Shown here: positions 28,670-44,344 of the stretch, one piece after another | How positions within the stretch are numbered: position 1 is the stretch's first letter | Layout of the letters: every line of letters begins with the position of its first letter | Source of the DNA: an uncultured Bacteroidales bacterium | GTDB taxonomy: Bacteria; Bacteroidota; Bacteroidia; Bacteroidales; UBA932 | Assembly (NCBI GenBank): GCA_947177525.1 | Contig: CAMWUW010000004.1 | Span: 1 to 64,000 of the forward strand | Length of the DNA stretch: 64,000 nt | Direction: 5' to 3' | Position numbers and translations under genes: made by a program | Notes under the pieces: model-generated | Told to the model about the DNA's origin: nothing | The model's input: only the letters and a program-made list of their open reading frames with translations | Database searches by the model: none

Positions 28670-28799
28670 AATTTATTAAATTGGTTAATAAAAGCCCACA
28701 AAGATATGCTTTTATCACCAATGCTGCAACCGGTTTGGGGGCAAATGAGCAAGTTCATCCTGCCATAGTTCAATTTCAAAGGTATATAAATCCTGAAGC

Positions 28800-30095
28800 C
28801 TAATAAGGAAAAGTCATCATAAGAGTGTCGAATCCGTATTTTTCCGCAACAGACAGAACAAAACGGCAGACATCAATATAATATGACTTACGGAAGACAT
28901 CATCTGGAACAGATTTATCTGTCTTATATATGAAACTTACACCATAATCCGCACTAAAGGATACTATCATTGTATCAAAAGCACCGTCATACACATCACA
29001 CCGTACAGATTCATTGAATTCAGGCAGCAGGAAATTCTCCTTTAATGTCTGCAGTTCTACCTTCAGTCCGTCAATTCCGTCAGAGAGCGGATCCAGTCCA
29101 GCTTTACAACAAAAGACCTTGTCTGCATATTCTTTATATGGCAAAACTTTCCGCCCTTCACTCCGGGCAGAGCGCACAATCATCGGCAGTTCATAAAATG
29201 AGGCAAACATATCCTGCATATAACTGCCGTATATTCCGTTTAGGGCAGCATAGATCTGATAACGGTCAAGAGAATCTTCCGTCAGGAAAGGTACAGGCTC
29301 ACCGGACATCATCATGTCACAGACAAGAATGTTATATTTTGCTGCTTCAATCAGCACCTCATCTGAAGCCCCGGATGCGATACATTCATAAAAGCAGTCA
29401 CGGGCATCTTTAAAATTACATTCATACATGTGATGCAGGCCGCATGCCAATGTCCTGTCAACAATGAGACTGTCGCCGGCATATTCCTCCTCAATCAATT
29501 CCTCAGATGTAAAGGAACGATAGAATGCACCACCATCACCGATAGCATACTCTGTCGTAATCTTTTCATCATCAAGCATGAAGATGCTGAACGATTGTCT
29601 TGTATCTCCATCGTATGACACTTTCAGCACCTCAAAACAGTTATCGGACAGCCGAGCAAGGCGTTTCAAGGCTACCAGTCCGTCATCTGAATAAAAGATA
29701 TAGTCATATTCCGGTTCTATGACAATATTTCCGTTCACATCCAATGCACCGATACCCCATTGGTACTCAAACAGGCATATCCCGTTGACAAAGCCCCGAT
29801 GTCTTGAATTGTATGGAAAGACAGCCCTGGTAGTCAAAGATGTATCCAACACAAATGACGCACTGAAACCAAGGCCGGCAACGACAAAGTCATCACCAGA
29901 CTTTCTGTCCCAATCAACGGAACTGAAGATGGCAGGCAGGCTGTCTCTGACATTATTTGTGCTGCTATCAATAACTTTCAGATTGAAATAGCCTCCTTTG
30001 CCATCCAGGAAATAATAGAAACGCTGTGCATTACTGTCTGACAGGAATATAGACAGCAGCATGATGACGAATATCAATTTATATCTGGTTTTCAT
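28800..30095 (-). CDS. secreted protein with WG-repeat-like segment; paralog of the next gene
   Basis: Signal peptide; YQWGIGALDVNGNIVIEPEYDYIF; shares C-terminal LMMTFPY with 30118-31404. Confidence 0.65.
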   Translation of the reverse strand: MKTRYKLIFVIMLLSIFLSDSNAQRFYYFLDGKGGYFNLKVIDSSTNNVRDSLPAIFSSVDWDRKSGDDFVVAGLGFSASFVLDTSLTTRAVFPYNSRHRGFVNGICLFEYQWGIGALDVNGNIVIEPEYDYIFYSDDGLVALKRLARLSDNCFEVLKVSYDGDTRQSFSIFMLDDEKITTEYAIGDGGAFYRSFTSEELIEEEYAGDSLIVDRTLACGLHHMYECNFKDARDCFYECIASGASDEVLIEAAKYNILVCDMMMSGEPVPFLTEDSLDRYQIYAALNGIYGSYMQDMFASFYELPMIVRSARSEGRKVLPYKEYADKVFCCKAGLDPLSDGIDGLKVELQTLKENFLLPEFNESVRCDVYDGAFDTMIVSFSADYGVSFIYKTDKSVPDDVFRKSYYIDVCRFVLSVAEKYGFDTLMMTFPY

Positions 30096-30117
30096 TGGAG
30101 TTTACGTTATATAATCA

Positions 30118-31404
30118 CTAATATGGAAATGTCATTACCAATTCCGAGAGATGATACCCGTCAATCAGGGACTGCATGAAAAGCCTGATGTCAAGATAAT
30201 ATGACTGGCGGAATCTGCTGTCCGGATATTTCTTGTCCCCGCTTGTGCAGAACTTGCATGAACCGCTGGTGTCAACACTTACAACCATTGTGTCGAGTTC
30301 ATCATAAGGAATCCCAAACAATGACAGCGACTGGACAAAAGCATCCCTGCGCTCAAGCAAAAGGCCATACAGACCTTTGTCGTGCATTTTTAAAGGATTC
30401 ATCATATCCCTGTCATAATATAACTTTCCGGAATAATCGGAATAAGGCAATTTCCCATCAAGATAAAAGCCTCCAATGCACAGAAGAGGCAGTTCGTAAT
30501 GTGACTTGAAAAAATCGGCTGCTTTTTGTCCATACAATCCGAAAATAGCTGCATCAATCTCATATTCATGAAGCTTGTCCCTTTTAGGAAGACGACGGAC
30601 ACGGCCCGTGGCCATGACTTTACATGCATTCAGATTATAATTCACAGATGCTGATAATTCCTCGTCGGCCTCTTCTGAACGCAATGCTTTTCTGAAATAT
30701 GCCTTGGCTTGCGTGTAATCACCATTGACCATCTTGTTGATTCCCGATGCAACAGTATGATATAAAGGAGATTGTATATAGCGTGATATCGAATCTGCCG
30801 AAAATAGGACAGGCAAAATTTCCATGTCGCGACGAGCAATCCCGAACCGGTAATAAGGTACATTCAATATAAATGCCTCATTTTCACTTTCGCCAGAGCC
30901 TATACGATGCACTTCAAAATATTTACATCGCGACAATTTTTTATCGGAATAACAGACGGCCCTCTTGAATCCTACAAGGCTATTGCTCACATCACGTCCT
31001 ACATAATCATATTCCGGTTTCAGGACAATGTTGCCATGGTCATCTATCGCGCCATAGCCCGTTTCATGTCCCGGTCCTTTGACAATACATGTACCGCCAT
31101 TGAATCCATACGCCTCATCTATCCCGTTGGGAAAATCCAATATGACATCAAGCTCCGCATCAAGGGCTACAAATGTCCTGTCAGATATCTTGGCGACAAC
31201 CAGCTCGCCGGGACTTTGCGGAAGGATGACGCACCGGAACAATGCAGGCAAGGCGGCCGTGACCTTGCCTGTATTGTCATCAATTACCTCAATCCCATAA
31301 AGCCCGCCGCTTCCGGAAGTTTTCCTGAATGTCTGGGCATTGGCGTATGAAACGGACGCCAGGATAAAAATGCCAGATAATATCAGACGGTATAATACTT
31401 TCAT
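30118..31404 (-). CDS. secreted protein with WG-repeat-like segment; paralog of 28800-30095
   Basis: Signal peptide ..SYANAQ; HETGYGAIDDHGNIVLKPEYDYVG; C-terminal ELVMTFPY. Confidence 0.65.
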   Translation of the reverse strand: MKVLYRLILSGIFILASVSYANAQTFRKTSGSGGLYGIEVIDDNTGKVTAALPALFRCVILPQSPGELVVAKISDRTFVALDAELDVILDFPNGIDEAYGFNGGTCIVKGPGHETGYGAIDDHGNIVLKPEYDYVGRDVSNSLVGFKRAVCYSDKKLSRCKYFEVHRIGSGESENEAFILNVPYYRFGIARRDMEILPVLFSADSISRYIQSPLYHTVASGINKMVNGDYTQAKAYFRKALRSEEADEELSASVNYNLNACKVMATGRVRRLPKRDKLHEYEIDAAIFGLYGQKAADFFKSHYELPLLCIGGFYLDGKLPYSDYSGKLYYDRDMMNPLKMHDKGLYGLLLERRDAFVQSLSLFGIPYDELDTMVVSVDTSGSCKFCTSGDKKYPDSRFRQSYYLDIRLFMQSLIDGYHLSELVMTFPY

Positions 31405-31577
31405 GTTATGTTATTGTTTTCTTATTTTGCTTTGTTCCTGCTTTATATGTTGAGAAATCATATCCTTCCTATAACTGCCTGCTTTTTTATATGACCAATG
31501 TTCCATTATAAAAACCGCCTTTAGGATTCACATTTAATTTATGGTCTCAGCTTGAGATTCTGGGCCAGCTGTCAGTG

Positions 31578-32003
31578 TTATATTAATTTGTTCCAGTCAG
31601 TCTTACCTGCATGCACCATTTCCTCCTTCCGTTGTGTTATAATGTAGATTTTATCGCCATCATCATCTATGTTTGTCATGAATCTACCAGAAGTACGGCT
31701 AAAATACCATGCATTCCCATCCCAATCCACAAAGTTAAGCCCCTGCGGGTCTTTTCTTTGCTCACGCTCGGCAAAATGAGCAAGCTCCTTCTGCTCTCGC
31801 TCAATCGCAAAGTTAACAGGATTTCCCGAACAATATGCATATGGGCTGATGGAATAGTATTTTTCAGCAAGCGGGTCCATGGTCGTCCAGCGGGAGGACA
31901 GAGGGTGGTAGAACCTTGAGCCGTAGTAGAGATACGGAAGGCCGGCGAACTTCTGTGATTCCTTGCCGTTGAAACGGTAGGCCTCCAATTTACGCAAAGA
32001 CAT
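31578..32003 (-). CDS. displaced RHS core fragment + short tip (cassette C)
   Basis: YRFNGKESQKFAGLPYLYYGSRFYHPLSSRWTTMDPLAEKYYSISPYAYCSGNPVNF matches the core of 36500-40141, then a 26-aa insert and a ~40-aa unrelated tip; no signal peptide. Confidence 0.8.
   Translation of the reverse strand: MSLRKLEAYRFNGKESQKFAGLPYLYYGSRFYHPLSSRWTTMDPLAEKYYSISPYAYCSGNPVNFAIEREQKELAHFAEREQRKDPQGLNFVDWDGNAWYFSRTSGRFMTNIDDDGDKIYIITQRKEEMVHAGKTDWNKLI
31730..31816. repeat. 78-bp junction repeat, copy C, with CAAAGTTAA direct repeats
   Basis: CAAAGTTAAgcccctgcgggtcttttctttgctcacgctcggcaaaatgagcaagctccttctgctctcgctcaatcgCAAAGTTAA. Confidence 0.9.
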
Positions 32004-32103
32004 GTATGATTTGAAAAGGATGCTAATCTATCATTAAAAAGCAGTGCGGACAATCATTTAGAATCACTATCAGCACTGCAACTAAATTATAACTCTTAAA
32101 ATA

Positions 32104-32583
32104 TCACCGACGCCACTTGTCTGCATGCCTCTGCCTACGTTCTTGTCTCTTACGCAACTTTGCCCTATACTTATCTACATAAGTAGAACTGTAGTTGATT
32201 GAAGGGTCTGAAGGCAGATACACTATCATTATGTTTTCACCTACCGTAAAGCTGGGATCCGAAACAGAAAAGCCCTTATAAACCAATTTGTTAACTTCGA
32301 ACCTATAGTAACGATAAGGAGTTCCTCTGGCATTCTTTGCCGCATAGACATAAGCGATTTGATTCTCACCATAAGCAGCAAGTTTATAACTATTAATAGT
32401 ATTGACTGTGACTTTATATACTATCAAACTTATCAAAGCTAAAATTAAAACATAGTCCAATCTCAACGGAATATCCCACTTCTTTTGGGAAGCCTTTGCG
32501 GCTTTTTCACGTTCGCGTTTCCGTCGGTTCTTTTCACGACGGGTCTGCTTGCGGATCTTAGCCTGATTCAATTCATTATCCAT
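32104..32583 (-). CDS. small membrane protein, candidate immunity protein of cassette B
   Basis: Highly basic N-terminus, one strong TM segment (DYVLILALISLIVYKVTV); immediately downstream of tip B. Confidence 0.45.
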   Translation of the reverse strand: MDNELNQAKIRKQTRREKNRRKREREKAAKASQKKWDIPLRLDYVLILALISLIVYKVTVNTINSYKLAAYGENQIAYVYAAKNARGTPYRYYRFEVNKLVYKGFSVSDPSFTVGENIMIVYLPSDPSINYSSTYVDKYRAKLRKRQERRQRHADKWRR

Positions 32584-32589
32584 AGCATT

Positions 32590-33195
32590 TTAATCTTTTT
32601 CTAATACCTTCTTGGATACAGAACTGGAAGTACTTCCAATAACCGTGTTGACGTTGTAATCAACTATATTATTGACAATCTGCTTCAATTCATTATCAGC
32701 ACGAGTCTTTTGGGCTATGGATTTAGCCTCCTTTGCTGAAAGGCTCTTACCATCTGCATGAGCCTTAGAGCGGGCTGACGATACAGCTGAATTTGCACTT
32801 TTTGTCTTTAGCGGTTTCACTTCTACACCTGTAGATATGCTTCCTATTGTCAGTCCGACAGCCGTATTTACTGCCGTCTCTGATACTGAATTCACATCCA
32901 AAGTCACGCCGCTGCCATTGCCGATTTCAACATCAACAGCATTACGGACCACCTCACTCACTACGGTGACTGCTACCTTGGTGGCGACTTTCTTAACGAT
33001 ATTGCCGCCGCTCGTTATAAAGCCTTCTCCAAAAGATATAGCAATGTCCCCTATATCAATGTTTGAGAATGCAGATGTGCTTACCTCTTTATCATGCACA
33101 ATATTAGCAATCACCTGACCGGTATAATCAACAGCCGCAGAAGCTATGCCGCCGACCAAATTAGCCAACAACGGGAACTCCCCATCCCAATCCAC
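32590..33195 (-). CDS. displaced RHS tip (cassette B), toxin-like C-terminal region
   Basis: Starts at the VDWDGEFPLLANLVGGIASAAVDYTGQVIANI junction; GTG start, core portion in another frame. Confidence 0.65.
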   Translation of the reverse strand: MDWDGEFPLLANLVGGIASAAVDYTGQVIANIVHDKEVSTSAFSNIDIGDIAISFGEGFITSGGNIVKKVATKVAVTVVSEVVRNAVDVEIGNGSGVTLDVNSVSETAVNTAVGLTIGSISTGVEVKPLKTKSANSAVSSARSKAHADGKSLSAKEAKSIAQKTRADNELKQIVNNIVDYNVNTVIGSTSSSVSKKVLEKD

Positions 33196-33280
33196 AAAGT
33201 TAAGCCCCTGCGGGCTTTTCTTTGCTCACACTCGGCAAAATGAGCAAGCTCATTCTGCTCTCGCTTAATCGCAAAGTTAA
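33195..33280. repeat. 78-bp junction repeat, copy B (1-bp deletion)
   Basis: Direct repeats 33195-33203 and 33272-33280; gcgggCTTTTC instead of gcgggTCTTTTC. Confidence 0.9.
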
Positions 33281-33400
33281 CAGGATTATTTGAACAGAAC
33301 GCATAAGGACTGACAGAATAATACTTTTCCGCCAGCAGGTCCATGGTCGTCCAGCGGGAGGACAGAGGGTGGTAGAACCTTGCGCCGTAATCGAGATACG
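33195..33400 (-). pseudogene. RHS core fragment (cassette B), frameshifted from its tip
   Basis: LPYLDYGARFYHPLSSRWTTMDLLAEKYYSVSPYAFCSNNPVNF in ORF 33144-33674, frame lost at the repeat deletion. Confidence 0.75.
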
Positions 33401-33477
33401 GAAGAGCGGAATTTTTCAAAAAAAATCTCCAGGCAATCGCAAGAATCACCTGGAGACATGAATTTATTTTAGCCGAA

Positions 33478-34590
33478 TCATCTTTCCATTGTCTTCGCAT
33501 ACGCTTCAACAAGAGGATAGGCATTGATGAATACCTGCGGGTCATAATCAGGCAAAGGGACATGACCTTGATCCGAAGCACGGACTTCCGACCATACGGA
33601 GTCAGCAGGCAAAGAGCACCCATGAAGACGGCAGACAAAAGATTCCGAATTTGAAAGATGGGCACGGGCCACACTACCGCTTTCGGGAATCAATGTCAAA
33701 AGATAGTCGGTCTCATTGGATCCTGGAAGAATCTCCGCCAGGACACCGTTGGAATCATAAGAGATGATGCGGCAAAGCCACTCTGGTTCGGACGGCAGTT
33801 CATAATATAAGGCATAAAAATTCTGCTTGCCGCAATAGAACGAGTCCTCGGAGAACTTTTCCAAGTTTCTCTTCTCAAAAATGTACGCAGAGCTGCCCAA
33901 AGGAAAAGGAAGATACAAAAGAGGCTCGACTATTCGAAAATTATTGGCACGGATGACATCTGGTATACCACAATAGGATTTATGACTCCTTTTCAACAAT
34001 GTACCAAAATCCCAGTACAGTTCCATAAGACGAAGTTTCAGAGGTTTATCCCGATCACGCTTATATGTTACACGGGAAGAGTAATATTCTGACAACGGAC
34101 CGGAATACAATGCCTGCCAAGCCGAGTCTAAACTGCTGTATTGCGGCCGCTCATTTATCCTGATGTACTCACGGTCGGTATGAGCAGGGTAAAAATATAA
34201 ACGACAATAGCCGGAAATATAGTCTTTGTTGTCAGTTTCATTACCCCATTCACCCGTATCCGTACGCTTATTCCTATAACTCAAATGGAAATCCGTATCT
34301 TGATACTCCGGCTTCAAGCGACAATACACCTTATTGGAATCACTGTAAACCACATTGTACAAAATTTCAGGCGGATAATAATAAGCGGAAATGTATTTTC
34401 TGTCATTGCCGTCCTCGAAAATATAAGCAGAATAACCGTCGTCTTGAAAATCAAGGCAAAACATAGGATTTGTAAATCTGAAATTCCTGTCAATGCCACC
34501 AGATGGGCACTCCAAGTACTCAGGCTCTGGAGGGGGACTGCATGAAATTACAGTGACAAGCAGAACGAAGCAAATTAAAGATCGTCTCAT
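33478..34590 (-). CDS. lipoprotein with internal duplication, candidate immunity protein of cassette A
   Basis: LLVTVISCSPPPEPE lipobox; directly downstream of the metallopeptidase tip; two similar halves (SAYIFE..Y.LPSE...I.YDSN). Confidence 0.55.
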   Translation of the reverse strand: MRRSLICFVLLVTVISCSPPPEPEYLECPSGGIDRNFRFTNPMFCLDFQDDGYSAYIFEDGNDRKYISAYYYPPEILYNVVYSDSNKVYCRLKPEYQDTDFHLSYRNKRTDTGEWGNETDNKDYISGYCRLYFYPAHTDREYIRINERPQYSSLDSAWQALYSGPLSEYYSSRVTYKRDRDKPLKLRLMELYWDFGTLLKRSHKSYCGIPDVIRANNFRIVEPLLYLPFPLGSSAYIFEKRNLEKFSEDSFYCGKQNFYALYYELPSEPEWLCRIISYDSNGVLAEILPGSNETDYLLTLIPESGSVARAHLSNSESFVCRLHGCSLPADSVWSEVRASDQGHVPLPDYDPQVFINAYPLVEAYAKTMER

Positions 34591-34598
34591 AATATTTT

Positions 34599-35159
34599 CT
34601 AAAATAAATTATTCAATAACAATAAAAGCTTTGACAGCCAATCATCCGTTCCACGGTTGGATTTGACCATTTCGTTGATGTTCTCCTGAGGAACATCTGA
34701 TGTGCGGTTTTCATCTTGCGCTTTGGTCATAATTCCCGTTTCCTTATGCTTCATTCCGAGACTATGGCCTATTTCGTGTGCACCTGTCGTGCTGCGCTCT
34801 TTTGTTCCGGGCTTGGTGACAGAATATGATTTTCTTATTGTTATATTAAATTTTTCATCAGTTTGCCCAGCAGTATTCTTAGATACTAAACCTTCATCAT
34901 TTACAATATATGTATTTGAGGTTTTATTTTCTGATTTTTCTTTAAGCCTGGTTGTTCCAAGTTCTAAAACTGACAATTCATATTTTATATTATAAACTTT
35001 TCCCGATTCATCCGTGTATGTATCTCCAGTTCTGCTGTTCCAAAAAGAAACAGCTTGTTTGGCAGACTTCATTGATTTCTCATCTGTATAATACGTCGCA
35101 GATATATAAATCGTATTTTTTCGAATCTTTCTTGTAAAATCCTCCCCATCAACATCCAC
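34599..35159 (-). CDS. displaced RHS tip (cassette A) with metzincin-type metallopeptidase motif
   Basis: TGAHEIGHSLGMKHKETGIMT = HExxHxxGxxH plus downstream Met; begins at FVDVDGEDF junction; in-frame TAG upstream in the repeat. Confidence 0.75.
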   Translation of the reverse strand: MDVDGEDFTRKIRKNTIYISATYYTDEKSMKSAKQAVSFWNSRTGDTYTDESGKVYNIKYELSVLELGTTRLKEKSENKTSNTYIVNDEGLVSKNTAGQTDEKFNITIRKSYSVTKPGTKERSTTGAHEIGHSLGMKHKETGIMTKAQDENRTSDVPQENINEMVKSNRGTDDWLSKLLLLLNNLF

Positions 35160-35245
35160 AAAGTTAAGCCCCTATGGGTCTTTTCTTTGCTCACGCTCGG
35201 CAAAATGCGCAAGTTCATTCTGCTCTCGCTTAATCGCAAAGTTAA
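35159..35245. repeat. 78-bp junction repeat, copy A (carries in-frame TAG)
   Basis: Direct repeats 35159-35167 and 35237-35245. Confidence 0.9.
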
Positions 35246-35283
35246 CAGGATTTCCCGAACAGAACGCATACGGACTGACAGAA
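35160..35283 (-). pseudogene. RHS core remnant of cassette A
   Basis: SVSPYAFCSGNPVNF nucleotide match to 37141-37190. Confidence 0.75.
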
Positions 35284-35452
35284 TTTTCGACATCGCAATA
35301 ATAGTTTTAATCAGCCTGTTATAAAAAACAAGACCGACTAAAAAAAGAATTTATAGTCGGCCTCAAACTATTTTCAAAAATCATAAGTATAAATGCCACC
35401 TCAATATACGCAGATTAAAACACAATCCTCATGCATTGAATCAGCATTATAC

Positions 35453-35941
35453 TTACCTATGAGAGTCATATCTGCAATACTTTCTTGAAAGCCTGCCATT
35501 AAAAAGCACAAGCCCCAAATATGCAAGAGAATCATCAATATGAACACGTTGTATCCTGGACATCTTCATGGACCGGTCATATCCTTTGACTCTACGGAAC
35601 ACCGCTCTATCAAGTTTCCCTTCAACGACAATAATATCGTTTCCATACTGTAGATAGGCAGTTCCCGCAGCAGGAACAAAATCCGGCCCGCGAAACATAC
35701 GGAACACAAAGACATCATTATCTTTTTCTATCCTGACATTCCAATGACACTCCTGCTTTGCAGTATCCTGTTGTGCCAAATAATGCCGAATCTCATCATC
35801 GATTATTTTATTGACACATTCCGCCTTCGGGATGGTCTTTATTACAAATGCTCCATCTTTTTTTGCCTCACAGGTCATTGACTGCATCCCAATGAGAGCA
35901 AACACGAATACCATCAATACTTTATCCATATTTTTATACAC
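35453..35941 (-). CDS. small secreted protein, paralog of 35949-36497
   Basis: AYLQYGNDIIVVEGKLDRAVFRRVKGYDRSMKMSR matches the neighbour. Confidence 0.6.
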   Translation of the reverse strand: MYKNMDKVLMVFVFALIGMQSMTCEAKKDGAFVIKTIPKAECVNKIIDDEIRHYLAQQDTAKQECHWNVRIEKDNDVFVFRMFRGPDFVPAAGTAYLQYGNDIIVVEGKLDRAVFRRVKGYDRSMKMSRIQRVHIDDSLAYLGLVLFNGRLSRKYCRYDSHR

Positions 35942-35948
35942 TTAATAA

Positions 35949-36497
35949 TCAATAATATTCAGCTTGCATTTGAAAAATCTTGTCTTCTGAAAACCAGAGT
36001 TCTAAGTAAGCGACAGGAGACTGCATCGGAATACGGTTCCTCAACATCTTTACCTCACGGTCGCACCACTCCACTTTCCGGAACAACAACTCATCAAGAC
36101 TGTTCTTGATTACTATTATATCATATCCATATTGCAAATACGCGACTCCTTCATCTGGAACATAATACGGCATACCAATCATACTGCATTTATACAGAAG
36201 CGGGACATCATACATATCGTGCCCGACTTCTATATCAAGATTCCAATAGCGCTCATGAGAGGTGTCCTTCTGTTGAGACAGGAAATATCTGATCTCCTTA
36301 TCAAGAAGGTCATTGACGCATTCCGCACAAGGGATAGTTTCAATTACAATTATATGATCATCATGACATTTGACAGTCCCATCCAATTGTAGCGCACAGA
36401 TGTACCTTTCTGTTAAGCCAAGAGGAATCAAGTTTGATTGAATCGCCGAGACAAAAAACAGCTGCATGAAAATGAAAGAATACAGAATTCGTAACAT
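35949..36497 (-). CDS. small secreted protein, candidate immunity protein of the intact RHS tip
   Basis: AYLQYGYDIIVIKNSLDELLFRKVEWCDREVKMLRN; starts 3 bp after the RHS gene. Confidence 0.6.
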   Translation of the reverse strand: MLRILYSFIFMQLFFVSAIQSNLIPLGLTERYICALQLDGTVKCHDDHIIVIETIPCAECVNDLLDKEIRYFLSQQKDTSHERYWNLDIEVGHDMYDVPLLYKCSMIGMPYYVPDEGVAYLQYGYDIIVIKNSLDELLFRKVEWCDREVKMLRNRIPMQSPVAYLELWFSEDKIFQMQAEYY

Positions 36498-36499
36498 AC

Positions 36500-39400
36500 T
36501 TATCTCTTTTTGTTTCTTTTCACAGAAAATATCACCGGTGATATTGTGTCTGTCGTATAGTAATCATACGCATGATATCGTTTGTCATTTGGAGTAAATA
36601 TATGATACTGTTCCCATTCTGGAGTAGAAAATTTTATACCATTTTTCTCCAGATAAGATATAGTACCTATATCTCCATTCTTTTGACCTGTTCCAGAAGG
36701 AGAAGGATCGCTATTAGGATGTACGTGATCAATGCGCGTAAATACTGCTCCCTGATTAACATATTCCATAGATAGTGCTGCTGTAGGTGTTGCCTCTTTT
36801 TCACCTATCAGAACAGCATTACCTATATCTGTATATATTACAGAACTTTCCACAATAGCTTGCCTATCATTTGTATTATTATCCTTACCCCAACTTGAAG
36901 GAGTCGCTATAAACTCAAACAACTTTTTAGCAACACTTGGGTCTGAAACTGTAAAATAATCATATCCTTTCTCGCCAAGATTGAGTGTTTCTTTAGAAAG
37001 ATCTGTTTTTTTAAAGGATTTGCGGCTTATTATATCACCATTAACATCCATTGTCCTTACAACATCTCTTTTGCTTTGCTTAACCCATGATATGCTTCCA
37101 TCTTCATAAACATTCCAAATATCCATACCATCAACATCCACAAAGTTAACAGGATTTCCCGAACAGAACGCATACGGACTGACAGAATAATATTTTTCTG
37201 ACAGCGGGTCCATTGTGGTCCAGCGGGAGGACAGAGGGTGGTAGAACCTTGCGCCGTAGTCAAGATATGGAAGGCCGGCGAACTTCTGGGATTCCTTGCC
37301 GTTGAAACGGTAGGGCTGGGACGTCACACCAAGACCGTCAGGAACAGTCCCCGAACCGGTTGCGCCATCAGAAACGCCTGACTGTACAGAAGCCACGACA
37401 TCAGCATCGGCAGTCGCGCCATCCGGAAACTCCACACCATAAGGATAGTAGTCATAAGTCTCCAGCACATTGCCATCGGAGTCGGCAACAGCACGGACAC
37501 TGCCAAGGTGGTCACTCATGAAGAAACAATAGCTGCCGTCCTTTATATAGCCACCGGGAACCAGAACCCGCTCCACAGAACCGTCGCAGTACACCACGCT
37601 CGAAGCATAGTCCGTGACAGAGGATGAACCACCGGGGCCGGAGACGCTCACGCGGAGCTTCACACCCTCCGGACTGTACAGGTAACGGATGTTATGAACG
37701 CCGCCAGAAGAGACACAAATCAGATCCTCGGGAAGGTTCATGCGGTTGTAGGACATCACAGTCAGACCGCTGTTGAGGTCGCGCGTCATGTTACCGTTCG
37801 CATCGTAGGCGTACTGCGTCATGCCGGAAGGGACACTCCCGGCAAGAAAGTCGGGTATCATACTGCCGCCGTGGTCAGACATCGCCTGGAGCCGGTTGCC
37901 GCCATAAGCCATCATCAGATCGTCACTATCTTCAGGGAACGCTCCCCTCTCACGCGCCACGGAAAGCACATTCCCATGGCCGTCATAAGAATACGACGTA
38001 CCGTAACCGGAAGCCGGACGGCCGTCAAGAAGCCATTCAGCGCCGGTAACACGACCAAGGCCGTCATAGGAGTAGCCGTAGCCCTTGCCAGCACCGCCGG
38101 AGAAAGACCACACGGCGGAAGAAATGCTGCCGTTGAACTGCGGAGACGAAGACGAGCCGGAGACGACGGGATCATCATAGTACAGTTTCTCGCTGAAAAC
38201 ACCGCTTGACACGCCTGTCTGCCACGAACGGATGTTGTAGGCATAATCCGTACGCATAGGCTCCGCACCGTTGCGGCCGTCAGAGGACAGGCGGCCCAGA
38301 TTGTCATAGCTGTTGTCCGCAAGGACCGTCTCCGGGCCGCTGCCAAGCCGGTGGGTAATCTTCAGAGGGCGCTCCATGTTGTCATAAGTATAGGTATAAC
38401 GCTCAACCAATGGCTTGCCAAGGACAGCCGGGTCAGGACGGGAGTCACCTGATGCGGAAGACACGGAGCCCACGGTATGCGACAGGGTACGCTTCAACGG
38501 CTGACCGGTGAAAGAATACCACGTCTTCTCACTATCCCAGCCTCCCAAGTGGTTCATAGAATGCGACTGGATCACCAGGCCGCGGTCGTCATAATAGCAG
38601 GAAGAATACAGGGCGTCGCGCATATCACCAACGGTCCACGCCACACGGCCCGTCACACGGGAACTGCCGTAACGGTCATACTCCGTCGTAACGACAGGCC
38701 GCTTCAGTACCGGAAGGGGAACCGGAGTGAGGGTAACGCTATCCTTTATAAGAGGAACGAGTGTACTGTCCTTTATAGGAGGAAGGAGCGTGCTGTCCTT
38801 CACCGGAGGAAAGGGAGCCACAGGAGGGTTCACAATCACAGGCTTCAGCACATACGCGCGAAGGCTGTCACGGCAGGACTCAGGCGCGAGGGAGATGAAG
38901 TCATAATTGTCATAATACGTGACATCAACAAGCTCGGAGCCAGAAGGAAGCGAAGGGCTCAGGACATAGCCGCAGGCAGATCCGTCCTCTCCTGCATAAG
39001 AAGCCGTGAACTCAGTTCCAGACACATCGCCGGAATAAGGCAGAGGACCGCAAGCACTCACGCAGGGGCGCCCGAGGCCGTCATACCAGATGGACGTCCA
39101 CTCACCCGACATGGCCTGGTTACCGTCCTGGCTGAGGACCGGACGCCGGTGGACATCATACTGCATCGTTACGGGAGAACACCCGGGGAGACGCTTCCAG
39201 ATACACTCGCCTAAGCCATCGTAACGATAGACATAAGCGTAGGACTTCATAGCAGAATCATCATCCGATGCGGCGGACACGTCCGCAAGAGCGTCAGACA
39301 GCAGAGGAGGAAGGACATAGCGCAGGCGGCCGAGCACATCATACACATAGTACGTGTCAAGAGCCCTCTCCACTCCGTCCTCGGACAACCAGCGGCGTTC

Positions 39401-40141
39401 AAGGACAGTGTTGCCGGAATAGTCGGTATACACGTCAACGGTGCCGTCACGGCCGGATACCCAGTTCTCCCCCATGAGAGTCTGGCGCACGAGACGTCCG
39501 GGAAGATAGTCTCCGGAAGAGGAGATTCCGCCGGAAGTCACCTTCCACAGCCTCACCACGTCATCGCCGGAAGATGAGCAGGTGCCGTACCCGTAGGCCT
39601 GCGTGCGGCCTGAAGTGTCAGTGCGCTGAGAGGAAGGCTGCCACACCTCACCTGGAAAGCCCTGCTCCAGGACACGGTCAAGCGTGCTGTTACCATAGAC
39701 AGTAACAGACCATGGGGCCGAATCGGGAGACATCCCGGTCAGGGAACCGTCACGGTAGAACTCAGCCGTGGCCGCACCGGCACCGTCACGAAAGCCCTGA
39801 CCTGATCCGCCAGCCAGGTCTGCATAAGGCAGGAAGATCTTGCTCTCACGCATATAACGGTCGTATTCCTTGTGCAGCACAAGGTCGTGCGCTCCGCCTC
39901 CCACGGCACCGACAGAGACCGTCTGGGAAGGAAAGCCAAGGCCGTCGTAATAGCTTACCGTCCTCATCGCACCCTCGGACGGCAGGGCGTTCACCGCAGC
40001 GGTGTCCTTCGCTCCGGAAACGCGCACCACAGTGCCGACTACAAAATTGTGACTATAGTCAGGGCCGGATTGGGCATATATATTTGTCAGATGGCATACT
40101 AATATTGCCAGGACTGACATGGATTTATATATCGTTTTCAT
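36500..40141 (-). CDS. full-length RHS repeat protein with JAB/MPN-like C-terminal tip
   Basis: Signal peptide; many YD repeats; YDYYPYG..YRFNGKESQKFAGLPYLDYGARFYHP core; C-terminal RIDHVHPNSDPSPSGTGQKNGDIGTI. Confidence 0.88.
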   Translation of the reverse strand: MKTIYKSMSVLAILVCHLTNIYAQSGPDYSHNFVVGTVVRVSGAKDTAAVNALPSEGAMRTVSYYDGLGFPSQTVSVGAVGGGAHDLVLHKEYDRYMRESKIFLPYADLAGGSGQGFRDGAGAATAEFYRDGSLTGMSPDSAPWSVTVYGNSTLDRVLEQGFPGEVWQPSSQRTDTSGRTQAYGYGTCSSSGDDVVRLWKVTSGGISSSGDYLPGRLVRQTLMGENWVSGRDGTVDVYTDYSGNTVLERRWLSEDGVERALDTYYVYDVLGRLRYVLPPLLSDALADVSAASDDDSAMKSYAYVYRYDGLGECIWKRLPGCSPVTMQYDVHRRPVLSQDGNQAMSGEWTSIWYDGLGRPCVSACGPLPYSGDVSGTEFTASYAGEDGSACGYVLSPSLPSGSELVDVTYYDNYDFISLAPESCRDSLRAYVLKPVIVNPPVAPFPPVKDSTLLPPIKDSTLVPLIKDSVTLTPVPLPVLKRPVVTTEYDRYGSSRVTGRVAWTVGDMRDALYSSCYYDDRGLVIQSHSMNHLGGWDSEKTWYSFTGQPLKRTLSHTVGSVSSASGDSRPDPAVLGKPLVERYTYTYDNMERPLKITHRLGSGPETVLADNSYDNLGRLSSDGRNGAEPMRTDYAYNIRSWQTGVSSGVFSEKLYYDDPVVSGSSSSPQFNGSISSAVWSFSGGAGKGYGYSYDGLGRVTGAEWLLDGRPASGYGTSYSYDGHGNVLSVARERGAFPEDSDDLMMAYGGNRLQAMSDHGGSMIPDFLAGSVPSGMTQYAYDANGNMTRDLNSGLTVMSYNRMNLPEDLICVSSGGVHNIRYLYSPEGVKLRVSVSGPGGSSSVTDYASSVVYCDGSVERVLVPGGYIKDGSYCFFMSDHLGSVRAVADSDGNVLETYDYYPYGVEFPDGATADADVVASVQSGVSDGATGSGTVPDGLGVTSQPYRFNGKESQKFAGLPYLDYGARFYHPLSSRWTTMDPLSEKYYSVSPYAFCSGNPVNFVDVDGMDIWNVYEDGSISWVKQSKRDVVRTMDVNGDIISRKSFKKTDLSKETLNLGEKGYDYFTVSDPSVAKKLFEFIATPSSWGKDNNTNDRQAIVESSVIYTDIGNAVLIGEKEATPTAALSMEYVNQGAVFTRIDHVHPNSDPSPSGTGQKNGDIGTISYLEKNGIKFSTPEWEQYHIFTPNDKRYHAYDYYTTDTISPVIFSVKRNKKR
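38737..38820 (-). repeat. 27-bp tandem repeat (9 aa, KDST/proline-rich linker)
   Basis: PPVKDSTLL-PPIKDSTLV-PLIKDSVTL. Confidence 0.75.
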
Positions 40142-40153
40142 GGATTTATCTCT

Positions 40154-43100
40154 TTATTGGATTATATATGTATCCTTATAGTCATGATAATCAGCTGCAC
40201 TATAATTAAAATCCCACATTGTATATCCGGAAGCAGCCGTAAAAGGAATCACTTCGTCTTTATCATTCCTAAGGAATACGCTTCTGTAAACATGCCGCGG
40301 AACATATATTATTTTAGGGACAATATCTTTAGTGACATCACCTGTATTATCTGTCCTCTCGCCGGCAGGTATACCAAATTTCAAATACCGTATGTCGCCT
40401 TGGGGACCCCATGAATACTCAAGAGTATATGCCTCAGAAGTGGCGTTATAGACCGAAACTATTATATAGGATTCACATTTGCCGTTCTCATCGGCATATT
40501 CCTGGCCGTTCGCCAAAAGGTCGTCAAATGCCATTCTGTTTGCATCAGACTGCGAAACCGTCGAAATACATTTGTACGCAGGGACGGTATATTTCACAGG
40601 AAGAGGAAAACTGCCCTCCGACTGGTTGCACCTGTTGCTGAGGAAATACATACTCATACTTTCATTGCCATAATATGGAGCATATACTTGAGGTGAGTTT
40701 CCTGCATAATTATAAACATACTGATTCGTTATGTCATCAGAACTGTTTTTGACCGCCTGAAGCCTGCCACAAACATCGTAGATATATGATTCCGTGACTC
40801 CTCCCGCGTCAGTGCGGCTGCGCAACCCGATGAAAGGATACCATGAATATGTCTCTATACAGGCATCTTCCGGCCATACACGCACATCATCAATAGGATT
40901 AAGGCCCTCATTTATAGTATATGACCTCCCGGGCAAAGACATCCTTACATAATCCCACTTGCCATTCCTGTACACCCTGTAGTCAAGCAGATATTTCCTG
41001 GAAGAATCACCTTTAAGATCTATCCTATATTCTCCGACAAGGCATTTGTCGCTGAAATATCCGAAAGGATATATATCCAAGCCGATATGAGACTCAAAGT
41101 TCTCATACAGGAACTCGTCCTGTCCGGAAGATATTGTATGGGAAATCCTGCCGGGATATGAAAATGTCATAAGCCCCTTGTCCTTTGAACCGGTCCCGTC
41201 CCGCATATCCGTGTTTACAGTCAGTGTATGCGTCCCTTTGGAAACATCTGTAAATATAAAGTCATCTGTATAAGCCTTCAGATATTTATCCCACGGAGCT
41301 TCAAGAGGCAGCTGGCTACGCCTTTGGACAAGGCCATATTCTCTGCCGTCAAGACTGCCGTATACAAACCAGTCAAATCCCAAAGCTCCGTTAAGATGCA
41401 TCTTCACATCACCGGCTGAATATGAAGTAAATGTATAATTCTTGTTTTGGGGAATGTCTTCAGGATCAAGCCAAACATTAACAACCTGTGTTGCAGGTTC
41501 CCATATTACATTATTTTTATAGGTATTTGCCGCATCAGAGACAATGGCCACGGGATAGGCGGAAGAATATCCCCACTGATAAGACACCGGAATCCCGTCT
41601 GCTGATTTTACAAGGATAGGATTGCCGGAATCATCAACATCTATGACTTCTGCCTCAATCTCATATCGACTGTCATACATACTTCCGGTGTATTTCTGGA
41701 ACGACGTGCTGTCAAGACCTTCTGTCAAGCCCAGTGTCCATGTCCTGCGGGGGATGAATATGGAATTGTCAAGTTCATATTCCACAAGCTTGCCCTCCGC
41801 CACATCGCCGTCAATATATGTCAGTGACTCTACCGGGCTTGAAACCATACCTTTGTCTGTCATCTGATTCAATATGTCGGTATTGTAATCATCCGGATAT
41901 GTAATGGTCTTTGTCTCGATGCTTCCGTCAGACATATTTTTTGTCATCCGCGTAGGCATCAGGTTTCCGTTGTATGTGAAATTCTCCGTCACAGATGACA
42001 TCACTGTCTGGCCCGACGGGTCATATAGAGTCTCAGTACGGCTTTCGAGATACGGGTAGAAAGTCAGGAGTTTGAAAGGGGTATATCGTACAAAAGGAAT
42101 ATTGACAAGATATCCAGGTACACCTGGTATGCTGAACTGCTCGACTGCCCTTGCATAATCTTCAAATCTTGCGGGATTGCTGTTGTAGTTCTGCTTTATT
42201 TCCTTGACCTTTTTGCCGTCACTGTACCAGATTTCATCCGTAAGAAGACCTCGCATCAGTTCGCGTGAAGTGAATTTGTTGTCAAGAGATACGTTGTCTA
42301 TGTTGGTGAACATCTTGAAATCTGCGGTGTCAGGCCAATTATTGTGATTGGTATACCGATACTCTTTGACAAGCGGTTTTTCGTCTCCTACATACTCGAC
42401 TACTCTGCTGTAGGTAACATAATTGCCGGTTGTCAATCCAAGGGCGTTTATATATGTTTCCGAGCACATGTTATATTTTTGTTCAATTACGGCTTCATAG
42501 CGAAAATAAACAAGTCCGTCCCATGACGAATATTCGCATTTATTATAGTTTCCTCCTTTGGCCACATATACCGGGATTCCGGAAAGTATTCCAGATGATG
42601 CCCCGTCTTCATTCTTATATTCAAATGAATGAATATATGAGGCTGTATCTGTAGAATACGTTATTCTCTTTATTCTGAGACCTCCAGCCTTACCGCTCTG
42701 CTCCAGAATCTCGAAATCAGGAGCCTGGGTTGCTATCTTTGAATAGTCATTAAGTTCATAATCAAATTTGGCACAGCCACCTGTTGGATATTGTATCTCA
42801 GTCAAGACTTCCGCTTTTGTATAATATTCATTTGCCGAACGGAATCCAAAAAAATCATTCTCGATATTTGTCTTGCGGTAATCCTTGTTGTTCCAATATC
42901 CCCAGTTGTCAGTTACAGTGGCATTATAAGCTGGAAGTTTAAGGCTATTATATTTTAATGTGTATTTCTGCTCAGTTATACCACTGCGACCTAGGACGGA
43001 CACATTATTGAGTTTCAGTCTTTCATTTGCATTCTCTGTATATCCAAATCTAAAAGAGTGCTGAGATTCACCATTGTATGTCACCTTTATCATGTTCAAT

Positions 43101-44344
43101 TGCTGTGAATAATTGTGAGGAGCATATGCTATACGCAATGAACTTCCCTCGGCATTATAGCACACATTATCATTAATGCGCGAAAAACCATAATATTGCA
43201 GCCATTCTTCATACTGTTTTCCTACTGTACTTAAATCATTATCCTTAGATGGGAAAAACTCAATCTTTAATCCATCATCAGTAGAAATTGACTTTGGATA
43301 AACAGGATGCTGAACTATAAATGACAAGCCTCTGTCTATATTCTGTGACGGCAGCAATGCAGCAGTTCCATTAACTCCATATACAGCACAGTCAGTTCTG
43401 ACATCGCTAAGTATAACAGGACTGCCATTACGCTGATATTCAAAGTGCATTTTATTACCGTCAGGCGATATAACCTCCCTAAGCATCCATGCAGTAGGCC
43501 AGGTTTTCAACAGATAGGTCACGACTTGTACCGGCACAGCAAATCCTTCGGTAAATTTCTCCGTATAGAATTCAATACTGTCATCACTCCCTCCGAAGAT
43601 AAGTTTCGTCCCATCGCTCTTGATTACAGTAAATTCGTAGAAAAGTTCATATATTCTATATGAGTCCAGAGGTCTATCCCCGCCTCCAGGGAATTTAAAC
43701 GTTTCGGGATTCTCTATGACTTTAGGTGGTTCAACACGAAATGATTCACCGTTATTACTTCTGACCTTGGTCTTTAGATTATTGTCCTTGTCACGGTAAA
43801 AATACACACTTCCGCTCACACCGTACGCATTGATGACAAATTCATCAGGCTGAAGATCATATTTAAACTTAAGCCGCAATGATGCATTGGCATAATCTAT
43901 GAGCCTGCTTTCAGAAGCCCAGTCATCACGATCCAAGTAACCAGAACAGAAATAGTATCCTGGATTCACTCCTTTATATCCATAACCTGTCTGATCACGG
44001 ACATCCTTCAGACACGTCTCATCCGGAATCCCGTTGACGACCCGGGTGATGCACCCGCCGGCGTTAAGATTCCAGCCAAGACCCACATAGCCAGGATACT
44101 GGTTCAGCTTGATGCCGGAAGCATAATAAGAAAGATGGATGGGAAGATGGAGATCCTTGTAGTCCAATGTGTAGAGGGGAATGTCTATGGAAGGCAATCC
44201 GTTGAAGTAGCTGACAGGGATTCGCTCGTATTTCACGAAATCTGTCGCAGAGGGAGATGTCACATTCATCTGCCCGAAGCAGCCGAAGCTGCATGCGGCT
44301 GATAAGGCAATGGCCATCAGGACCGCTTGGAGTTTTGTTTTCAT
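40154..44344 (-). CDS. large secreted RHS-like protein encoded upstream of the RHS gene
   Basis: Signal peptide; PSIDIPLYTLDYKDLHLPIHLSYYASGIKLNQYPGYVGLGWNLNAGGCITRVVNGIPDE; SYIYDVCGRLQAVK RHS-like motif. Confidence 0.8.
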   Translation of the reverse strand: MKTKLQAVLMAIALSAACSFGCFGQMNVTSPSATDFVKYERIPVSYFNGLPSIDIPLYTLDYKDLHLPIHLSYYASGIKLNQYPGYVGLGWNLNAGGCITRVVNGIPDETCLKDVRDQTGYGYKGVNPGYYFCSGYLDRDDWASESRLIDYANASLRLKFKYDLQPDEFVINAYGVSGSVYFYRDKDNNLKTKVRSNNGESFRVEPPKVIENPETFKFPGGGDRPLDSYRIYELFYEFTVIKSDGTKLIFGGSDDSIEFYTEKFTEGFAVPVQVVTYLLKTWPTAWMLREVISPDGNKMHFEYQRNGSPVILSDVRTDCAVYGVNGTAALLPSQNIDRGLSFIVQHPVYPKSISTDDGLKIEFFPSKDNDLSTVGKQYEEWLQYYGFSRINDNVCYNAEGSSLRIAYAPHNYSQQLNMIKVTYNGESQHSFRFGYTENANERLKLNNVSVLGRSGITEQKYTLKYNSLKLPAYNATVTDNWGYWNNKDYRKTNIENDFFGFRSANEYYTKAEVLTEIQYPTGGCAKFDYELNDYSKIATQAPDFEILEQSGKAGGLRIKRITYSTDTASYIHSFEYKNEDGASSGILSGIPVYVAKGGNYNKCEYSSWDGLVYFRYEAVIEQKYNMCSETYINALGLTTGNYVTYSRVVEYVGDEKPLVKEYRYTNHNNWPDTADFKMFTNIDNVSLDNKFTSRELMRGLLTDEIWYSDGKKVKEIKQNYNSNPARFEDYARAVEQFSIPGVPGYLVNIPFVRYTPFKLLTFYPYLESRTETLYDPSGQTVMSSVTENFTYNGNLMPTRMTKNMSDGSIETKTITYPDDYNTDILNQMTDKGMVSSPVESLTYIDGDVAEGKLVEYELDNSIFIPRRTWTLGLTEGLDSTSFQKYTGSMYDSRYEIEAEVIDVDDSGNPILVKSADGIPVSYQWGYSSAYPVAIVSDAANTYKNNVIWEPATQVVNVWLDPEDIPQNKNYTFTSYSAGDVKMHLNGALGFDWFVYGSLDGREYGLVQRRSQLPLEAPWDKYLKAYTDDFIFTDVSKGTHTLTVNTDMRDGTGSKDKGLMTFSYPGRISHTISSGQDEFLYENFESHIGLDIYPFGYFSDKCLVGEYRIDLKGDSSRKYLLDYRVYRNGKWDYVRMSLPGRSYTINEGLNPIDDVRVWPEDACIETYSWYPFIGLRSRTDAGGVTESYIYDVCGRLQAVKNSSDDITNQYVYNYAGNSPQVYAPYYGNESMSMYFLSNRCNQSEGSFPLPVKYTVPAYKCISTVSQSDANRMAFDDLLANGQEYADENGKCESYIIVSVYNATSEAYTLEYSWGPQGDIRYLKFGIPAGERTDNTGDVTKDIVPKIIYVPRHVYRSVFLRNDKDEVIPFTAASGYTMWDFNYSAADYHDYKDTYIIQ

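Follow-up and report, generated by a model that had tools for sequence, protein, structure and literature searches.

An Rhs locus of an uncultured Bacteroidales bacterium with orphan tip cassettes and a structured dispersed repeat at the junctions of displaced tips

The locus described here raises two questions, namely whether the tips and core fragments that follow an intact Rhs gene make up a polymorphic-toxin array, and what the repeated sequence is that stands in front of each displaced tip. The window, a stretch of 64,000 nucleotides at the start of contig CAMWUW010000004.1, comes from a MAG that is 87.5% complete, and all genes of the locus lie on its minus strand. The first in order of transcription encodes a large companion protein of 1396 aa (40154–44344) with a signal-like N-terminal segment, an RHS/YD-like sequence (one RHS_repeat match) and a DUF5977 domain. 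It is followed by the intact Rhs gene (36500–40141), whose 1213-aa product combines a signal-like N-terminus, DUF6443 and an Rhs_assc_core domain (TIGR03696, E = 1.1e-15, residues 940–1006) that ends at the core/tip junction (37141–37150), where the codons for V-N-F-V read GTTAACTTTG without any insert. The main tip beyond it (36500–37129) carries an HVHP motif. Next come two paralogous candidate immunity proteins (35949–36497, with a signal-like N-terminus, and 35453–35941; 43% identity over 128 aa). A second Rhs gene in the same genome (contig C53; L013 3434–4750) is about 35% identical, has a different tip and adjoins ribosomal protein genes.

Downstream, three further tips are each preceded by a fragment of the Rhs core, a feature of orphan Rhs cassette arrays. 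Core remnant A (35237–35284) retains 48 bp at 100% (all such lengths come from extending the match at the junction without gaps); it leads through a structured insert of 78 nt (35159–35244) to tip A (34599–35159) and a lipoprotein, the candidate immunity protein of this tip (33478–34590). Remnant B (33272–33404; 133 bp at 89%) is separated by a 77-nt insert (33195–33279) from tip B (32590–33195), which a membrane protein (32104–32583), its candidate immunity protein, adjoins. Remnant C (31808–31981; 174 bp at 90%) still matches Rhs_assc_core (E = 6e-14) and is joined by a 78-nt insert (31730–31815) to a short tip C (31578–31729), which is probably truncated, with about 45 aa past the junction; remnant and tip are entered together in the gene order as 31578–32003. 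Matches of this kind, with 198 nt at 70–87% for repeat family D1 of the window, lie far beyond chance. The locus closes with a WG-repeat protein with a signal-like N-terminus (30118–31404) and a WG-like protein (28800–30095), its paralogue by sequence likeness (31% identity). This gene order, with its coordinates, had been given in an earlier note on this DNA and holds on re-reading of the window, as do, within a few nucleotides for A and B and somewhat more loosely for C, its estimates of about 50, 130 and 190 bp of retained core.

Profile searches assign some of the tips to families. Tip A matches Peptidase_M10 (3.5e-5) with the motif HEIGHSLGMKH and is a metzincin-like metallopeptidase; tip B matched no family at the cut-off. 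The main tip does not match Toxin-JAB1 (PF15659) and aligns with an HSHP-containing tip of another genome (G118), so that it may be regarded as a distant relative of that tip and of Toxin-JAB1-type tips, with the JAB assignment itself tentative. Its neighbours matched no Pfam family, searches of PHROGs with four proteins and of PDB sequences with the main tip returned nothing, and the predicted structures were too poor for use (pLDDT 30 for the main tip and 43 for tip A). Toxin JABs have been argued to be possible nucleases (PMC3482391), so a protease role of JAB tips is not implied.

Comparison with other genomes shows, for the main tip and tip A, that tips and neighbours change together. Both large genes, the companion included, stand at the same place in a close relative, referred to here as G384 (MAG contig CAMXAU010000008.1, 'uncultured Bacteroidales bacterium'). 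As far as the junction the DNA is 83% identical; beyond it both the tip and its neighbour differ. The tip of G384 matches Toxin-JAB1 (7e-14), and the adjacent protein has a signal-like N-terminus and differs from the neighbours in the window. G175 has part of a main-tip homologue, and the gene directly after it is homologous to the small paralogs (32%, 2e-21). For tip A the corresponding case is G354: there an Rhs core continues in frame into a homologue of this tip (47% over 179 aa), and a distant homologue of lipoprotein A lies 3' of it (36% over 69 aa, 3e-12). Lipoprotein A and the start of core stub B recur in another species (G288) with 95% identity over 1310 bp. Among the loci compared, none gave useful homologues for pairs B and C, and comparative support for the pairing is thus confined to the main tip and tip A. 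The test of co-variation proposed in the earlier note, run for these two pairs, found each recurring with its partner; together with the exchanged tip and neighbour in G384, this argues for a polymorphic-toxin array, as had been proposed. That proposal had not recognized the repeat within the remnants as a dispersed element that was inserted there and is no part of the toxin core. Another orphan tip array is present in G175 (L129 1–5000), where a recurring piece of another Rhs core separates the cassettes, which carry no hairpin insert.

The array resembles Rhs/CDI orphan modules described in Serratia (PMC10539506) and in a broader survey (PMC3482391) in that an intact gene is followed by tip-immunity cassettes with core stubs and in that tips are swapped between strains. 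It differs from them in the 77–78-bp structured insert at each orphan junction, in the signal-like N-terminus of the Rhs protein and in that the T6SS sheath gene was not found. The Tox-JAB-1 class, which is restricted to Bacteroidetes, linked to Rhs and accompanied by the lipoprotein immunity protein Imm65 (PMC3482391), is matched by the tip of G384; the main tip of the window, unlike that class, gives no match to the family's profile, and no Pfam family was matched by its neighbours. Most of the candidate immunity proteins begin, as judged by eye, with a signal or lipoprotein sequence, which suggests that they may act in the cell envelope.

Alignment at the junction indicates that the repeat in front of the displaced tips is not part of the Rhs core. 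A, B and C have 78, 77 and 78 extra bases precisely where core and tip meet, at NPVNF|VD. These bases are flanked by two copies of TTAACTTTG, of which the intact gene has a single one and no insert. The insert was found in all five displaced tips examined (three in the window and two in G384) and in neither of the two intact genes, a pattern drawn from these seven junctions of two species; among the other Rhs relatives examined, outside these two genomes, no junction insert was found. One G384 orphan has a single unit and another has three in tandem. The flanking TTAACTTTG repeats are exact in four of the five orphans, and the fifth has a one-base variant of the left repeat. The exact site can be explained by the junction codons V-N-F-V, which spell TAACTTTG and fit the sequence TAnnTTTG. 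In four orphans the reading frame from core to tip is broken, by an in-frame TAG in A, by frame shifts in B and in the first G384 orphan, and by stops in the second G384 orphan, which also has a degenerate core stub; in C the frame stays open.

The orphan units of the two species are 93–99% identical to each other, versus 76–85% to copies upstream of gyrA, which indicates shared descent. The 3' ends of the cores are grouped otherwise: over 48 bp the intact gene does not differ from A, close to the junction the intact gene of G384 matches the first orphan exactly, and C resembles the second G384 orphan. Since these groups form regardless of the insert, its presence follows position (orphan or intact) and not core ancestry. 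A history of a single insertion does not by itself predict such grouping. It would fit a cassette of tip, immunity gene, stub and insert that enters at the junction, and it would equally fit relaxed selection on inserts in orphans combined with local recombination.

The insert belongs to a repeat family that extends far beyond this locus. Listed members are the three inserts of the window, L012 6219–6381 and L131–L159. A weak 42-bp match upstream of a SusC-like gene (28743–28784), considered as a fourth copy in the window, was not called by the covariance model and was rejected. With this model, built from 17 copies (three rows hand-transcribed from minus-strand reads) and applied with strict filters, the family was found in 34 of 295 genomes across the Bacteroidales. 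In the genome of the window a rough count, with 150 of 731 candidates scored, gave at least 43 matches at E ≤ 1, many of them in tandem arrays and the weak ones uncertain; two tandem copies lie upstream of gyrA.

The family appears to have a conserved structure. Among 92 copies from loci of other genomes, all 22 base pairs have changed on both sides, with 91% of cells paired. The score for covariation, 0.632, compares with 0.166 in shuffled and at most 0.108 in slid controls. This alignment was fitted to the covariance model and therefore somewhat favours structure; the slid controls and a MAFFT alignment of the seed copies (0.456 versus 0.178) indicate that the fitting is not the whole cause. 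Copying of the insertion target by the outer stem was rejected as a general rule, since the outer stems of two copies (L137 and L148) differ although both copies occupy one and the same place in Rhs; the covariation is therefore best taken as a sign of conserved structure. An integron attC site was likewise dismissed, as GTTAACT does not fit GTTRRRY. Rfam searches of six loci that hold copies gave no match over the repeat and one unrelated sub-threshold match. We regard the repeat as an order-wide, structured dispersed family with strong covariation and with no match in Rfam.

The sequence TAnnTTTG, which is the published −7 consensus of Bacteroidota promoters (PMC7366714), stands on either strand at the edge of 21 of 29 copies in the genome of the window (0.66 expected) and of 17 of 67 copies elsewhere (0.76 expected). 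Because the copies are related and partly tandem, and because some seeds carry the motif within the first positions of the model itself, this enrichment does not come from independent events. Direct repeats of at least 8 nt flank 14 of 70 copies (2.3% in shuffles) and no more, so the target duplication that would mark a MITE is not general. Most copies are intergenic, some of them upstream of genes such as gyrA and a ParA-type gene; some, in hsdS, Rhs and ZIP genes, lie in frame. Six copies, from four genomes, are in or just before hsdS (Methylase_S), near the N-terminus (L131, L134, L158, L220, L228 and L069); three are in Rhs cores of other Bacteroidales genomes (L137, L139 and L148; Rhs_assc_core 1.5e-12 to 8e-18), two of them, L137 and L148, at the same core position; and one is within a ZIP transporter gene (L146 1501–1583). 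A further copy lies inside an rmlD-like reading frame (L068 1501–1585), with a long near-perfect hairpin nearby (1946–2084).

For an in-gene palindromic repeat of Bacteroidales, the open-access literature yielded only BrickBuilt, PINSR and the Rickettsia palindromic elements as leads. The last (PMC10969869) are likewise short palindromic repeats, and they at times lie in frame within genes. They differ in length (about 150 nt, as opposed to about 80 nt here) and, as far as known, in conserved structure, and the present repeat is found in Bacteroidales, is mostly intergenic and often stands at TAnnTTTG. BrickBuilt of Porphyromonas gingivalis, a MITE with promoter activity that consists of a 23-nt minisatellite with inverted ends and is strictly intergenic (PMC4596501), and PINSR of Prevotella intermedia, which is 188 bp long and intergenic (PMC4755523), are also dispersed repeats of Bacteroidales, and their descriptions set them apart from the present repeat.

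On this evidence the locus is probably an Rhs polymorphic-toxin locus whose tips have been replaced serially, with a junction hairpin repeat that travels with the displaced cassettes. The intact gene, the core stubs and the different tip and neighbour in the relative can be read directly from the two genomes. With each replacement the former tip would move downstream together with its immunity gene, behind a stub of the core; the tips would be antibacterial toxins, their neighbours would neutralize them in the cell envelope, and the orphan cassettes may persist mainly for immunity. The repeat would have entered one displaced junction, probably because GTTAACTTTG mimics the TAnnTTTG box, and would then have been carried along. 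It breaks or lengthens the reading frame that runs from core to tip, and its absence from intact genes would reflect the loss of toxin function that it would cause in them. Most likely, then, the insert has spread with displaced cassettes and blocks fusion of core and tip; the open frame of copy C counts against the blocking part.

It is possible, if rather unlikely, that the orphans are decaying pseudogenes, that the insert is neutral debris at a hot spot and that cassettes have not moved at all. The truncated tip C and the stops and degenerate stub of the second G384 orphan are as expected of such leftovers, but tip A and lipoprotein A are intact, and the near identity of the lipoprotein in G288 speaks for recent transfer or selection. 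We consider it still less likely that the insert is functional, either as the trailing end of a mobile cassette of tip, immunity gene and core stub or as a reversible plug. Slippage or recombination can remove hairpin DNA precisely when it stands between two 9-bp direct repeats, and such loss would restore the fusion of core and tip. The exact placement between TTAACTTTG repeats and the identical core 3' ends with and without insert in both species would agree with this, as would the end of the G384 contig (L049 14995–15049), where exactly 55 bp identical to the start of its own main tip are preceded by the insert and not by core, as a cassette of about 1.9 kb would produce if copied in tandem or joined into a circle. 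However, 55 bp is probably the usual overlap of a common assembler in a joined graph, a strain mixture or second copy would explain this end equally well, and copies near gyrA and elsewhere have no role in cassettes. That the hairpin is built into toxin-cassette exchange, as trailing end and plug whose precise loss at the 9-bp repeats rejoins a stored tip, seems a long shot; if true, copies near the starts of hsdS would serve similarly in a second gene that is modular and recombines.

A role of the insert as promoter or leader of the orphan immunity genes is similarly doubtful: many copies do lie upstream of genes and at TAnnTTTG boxes, but by eye no TTTG stands at the proper spacing (−33) before the junction box, the intact gene has the same box with no insert, and other copies are in frame within genes.

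As for delivery, VipB (PF05943), the T6SS sheath protein, was not found in the genome of the window in a search whose E. coli control was positive; in a genome that is 87.5% complete this is not proof of absence. A search for SprA of the T9SS gave no match in the genome, with a control that was silent as well, and no TcA partner was found in the 26–47 kb neighbourhood of the window. The sheath result agrees with the earlier note, in which no T6SS or Tc partner had been visible nearby and the delivery route was called unclear. The missing sheath gene would also suit an Rhs surface protein followed by unrelated genes, with no polymorphic toxin at all, but the toxin-family tips (JAB1, M91-like and metzincin-like) and the recurrence of neighbours with tips in other genomes make this highly improbable.

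Orphan Rhs tip-immunity arrays are already known; what is new here is the junction insert in displaced tips. The array supplies matched pairs of tips and neighbours from an uncultured genus. Several of the tips are of metallopeptidase or JAB type and have exported partners, and this suggests toxins that act in the envelope and do without a T6SS. A structured repeat that spans the order, covaries strongly and lacks an Rfam entry would be a new family well worth describing. In the Rhs locus itself the insert makes the storage, silencing and re-use of orphan tips testable, as it is one defined sequence of 77–78 bp that is present or absent at known places.
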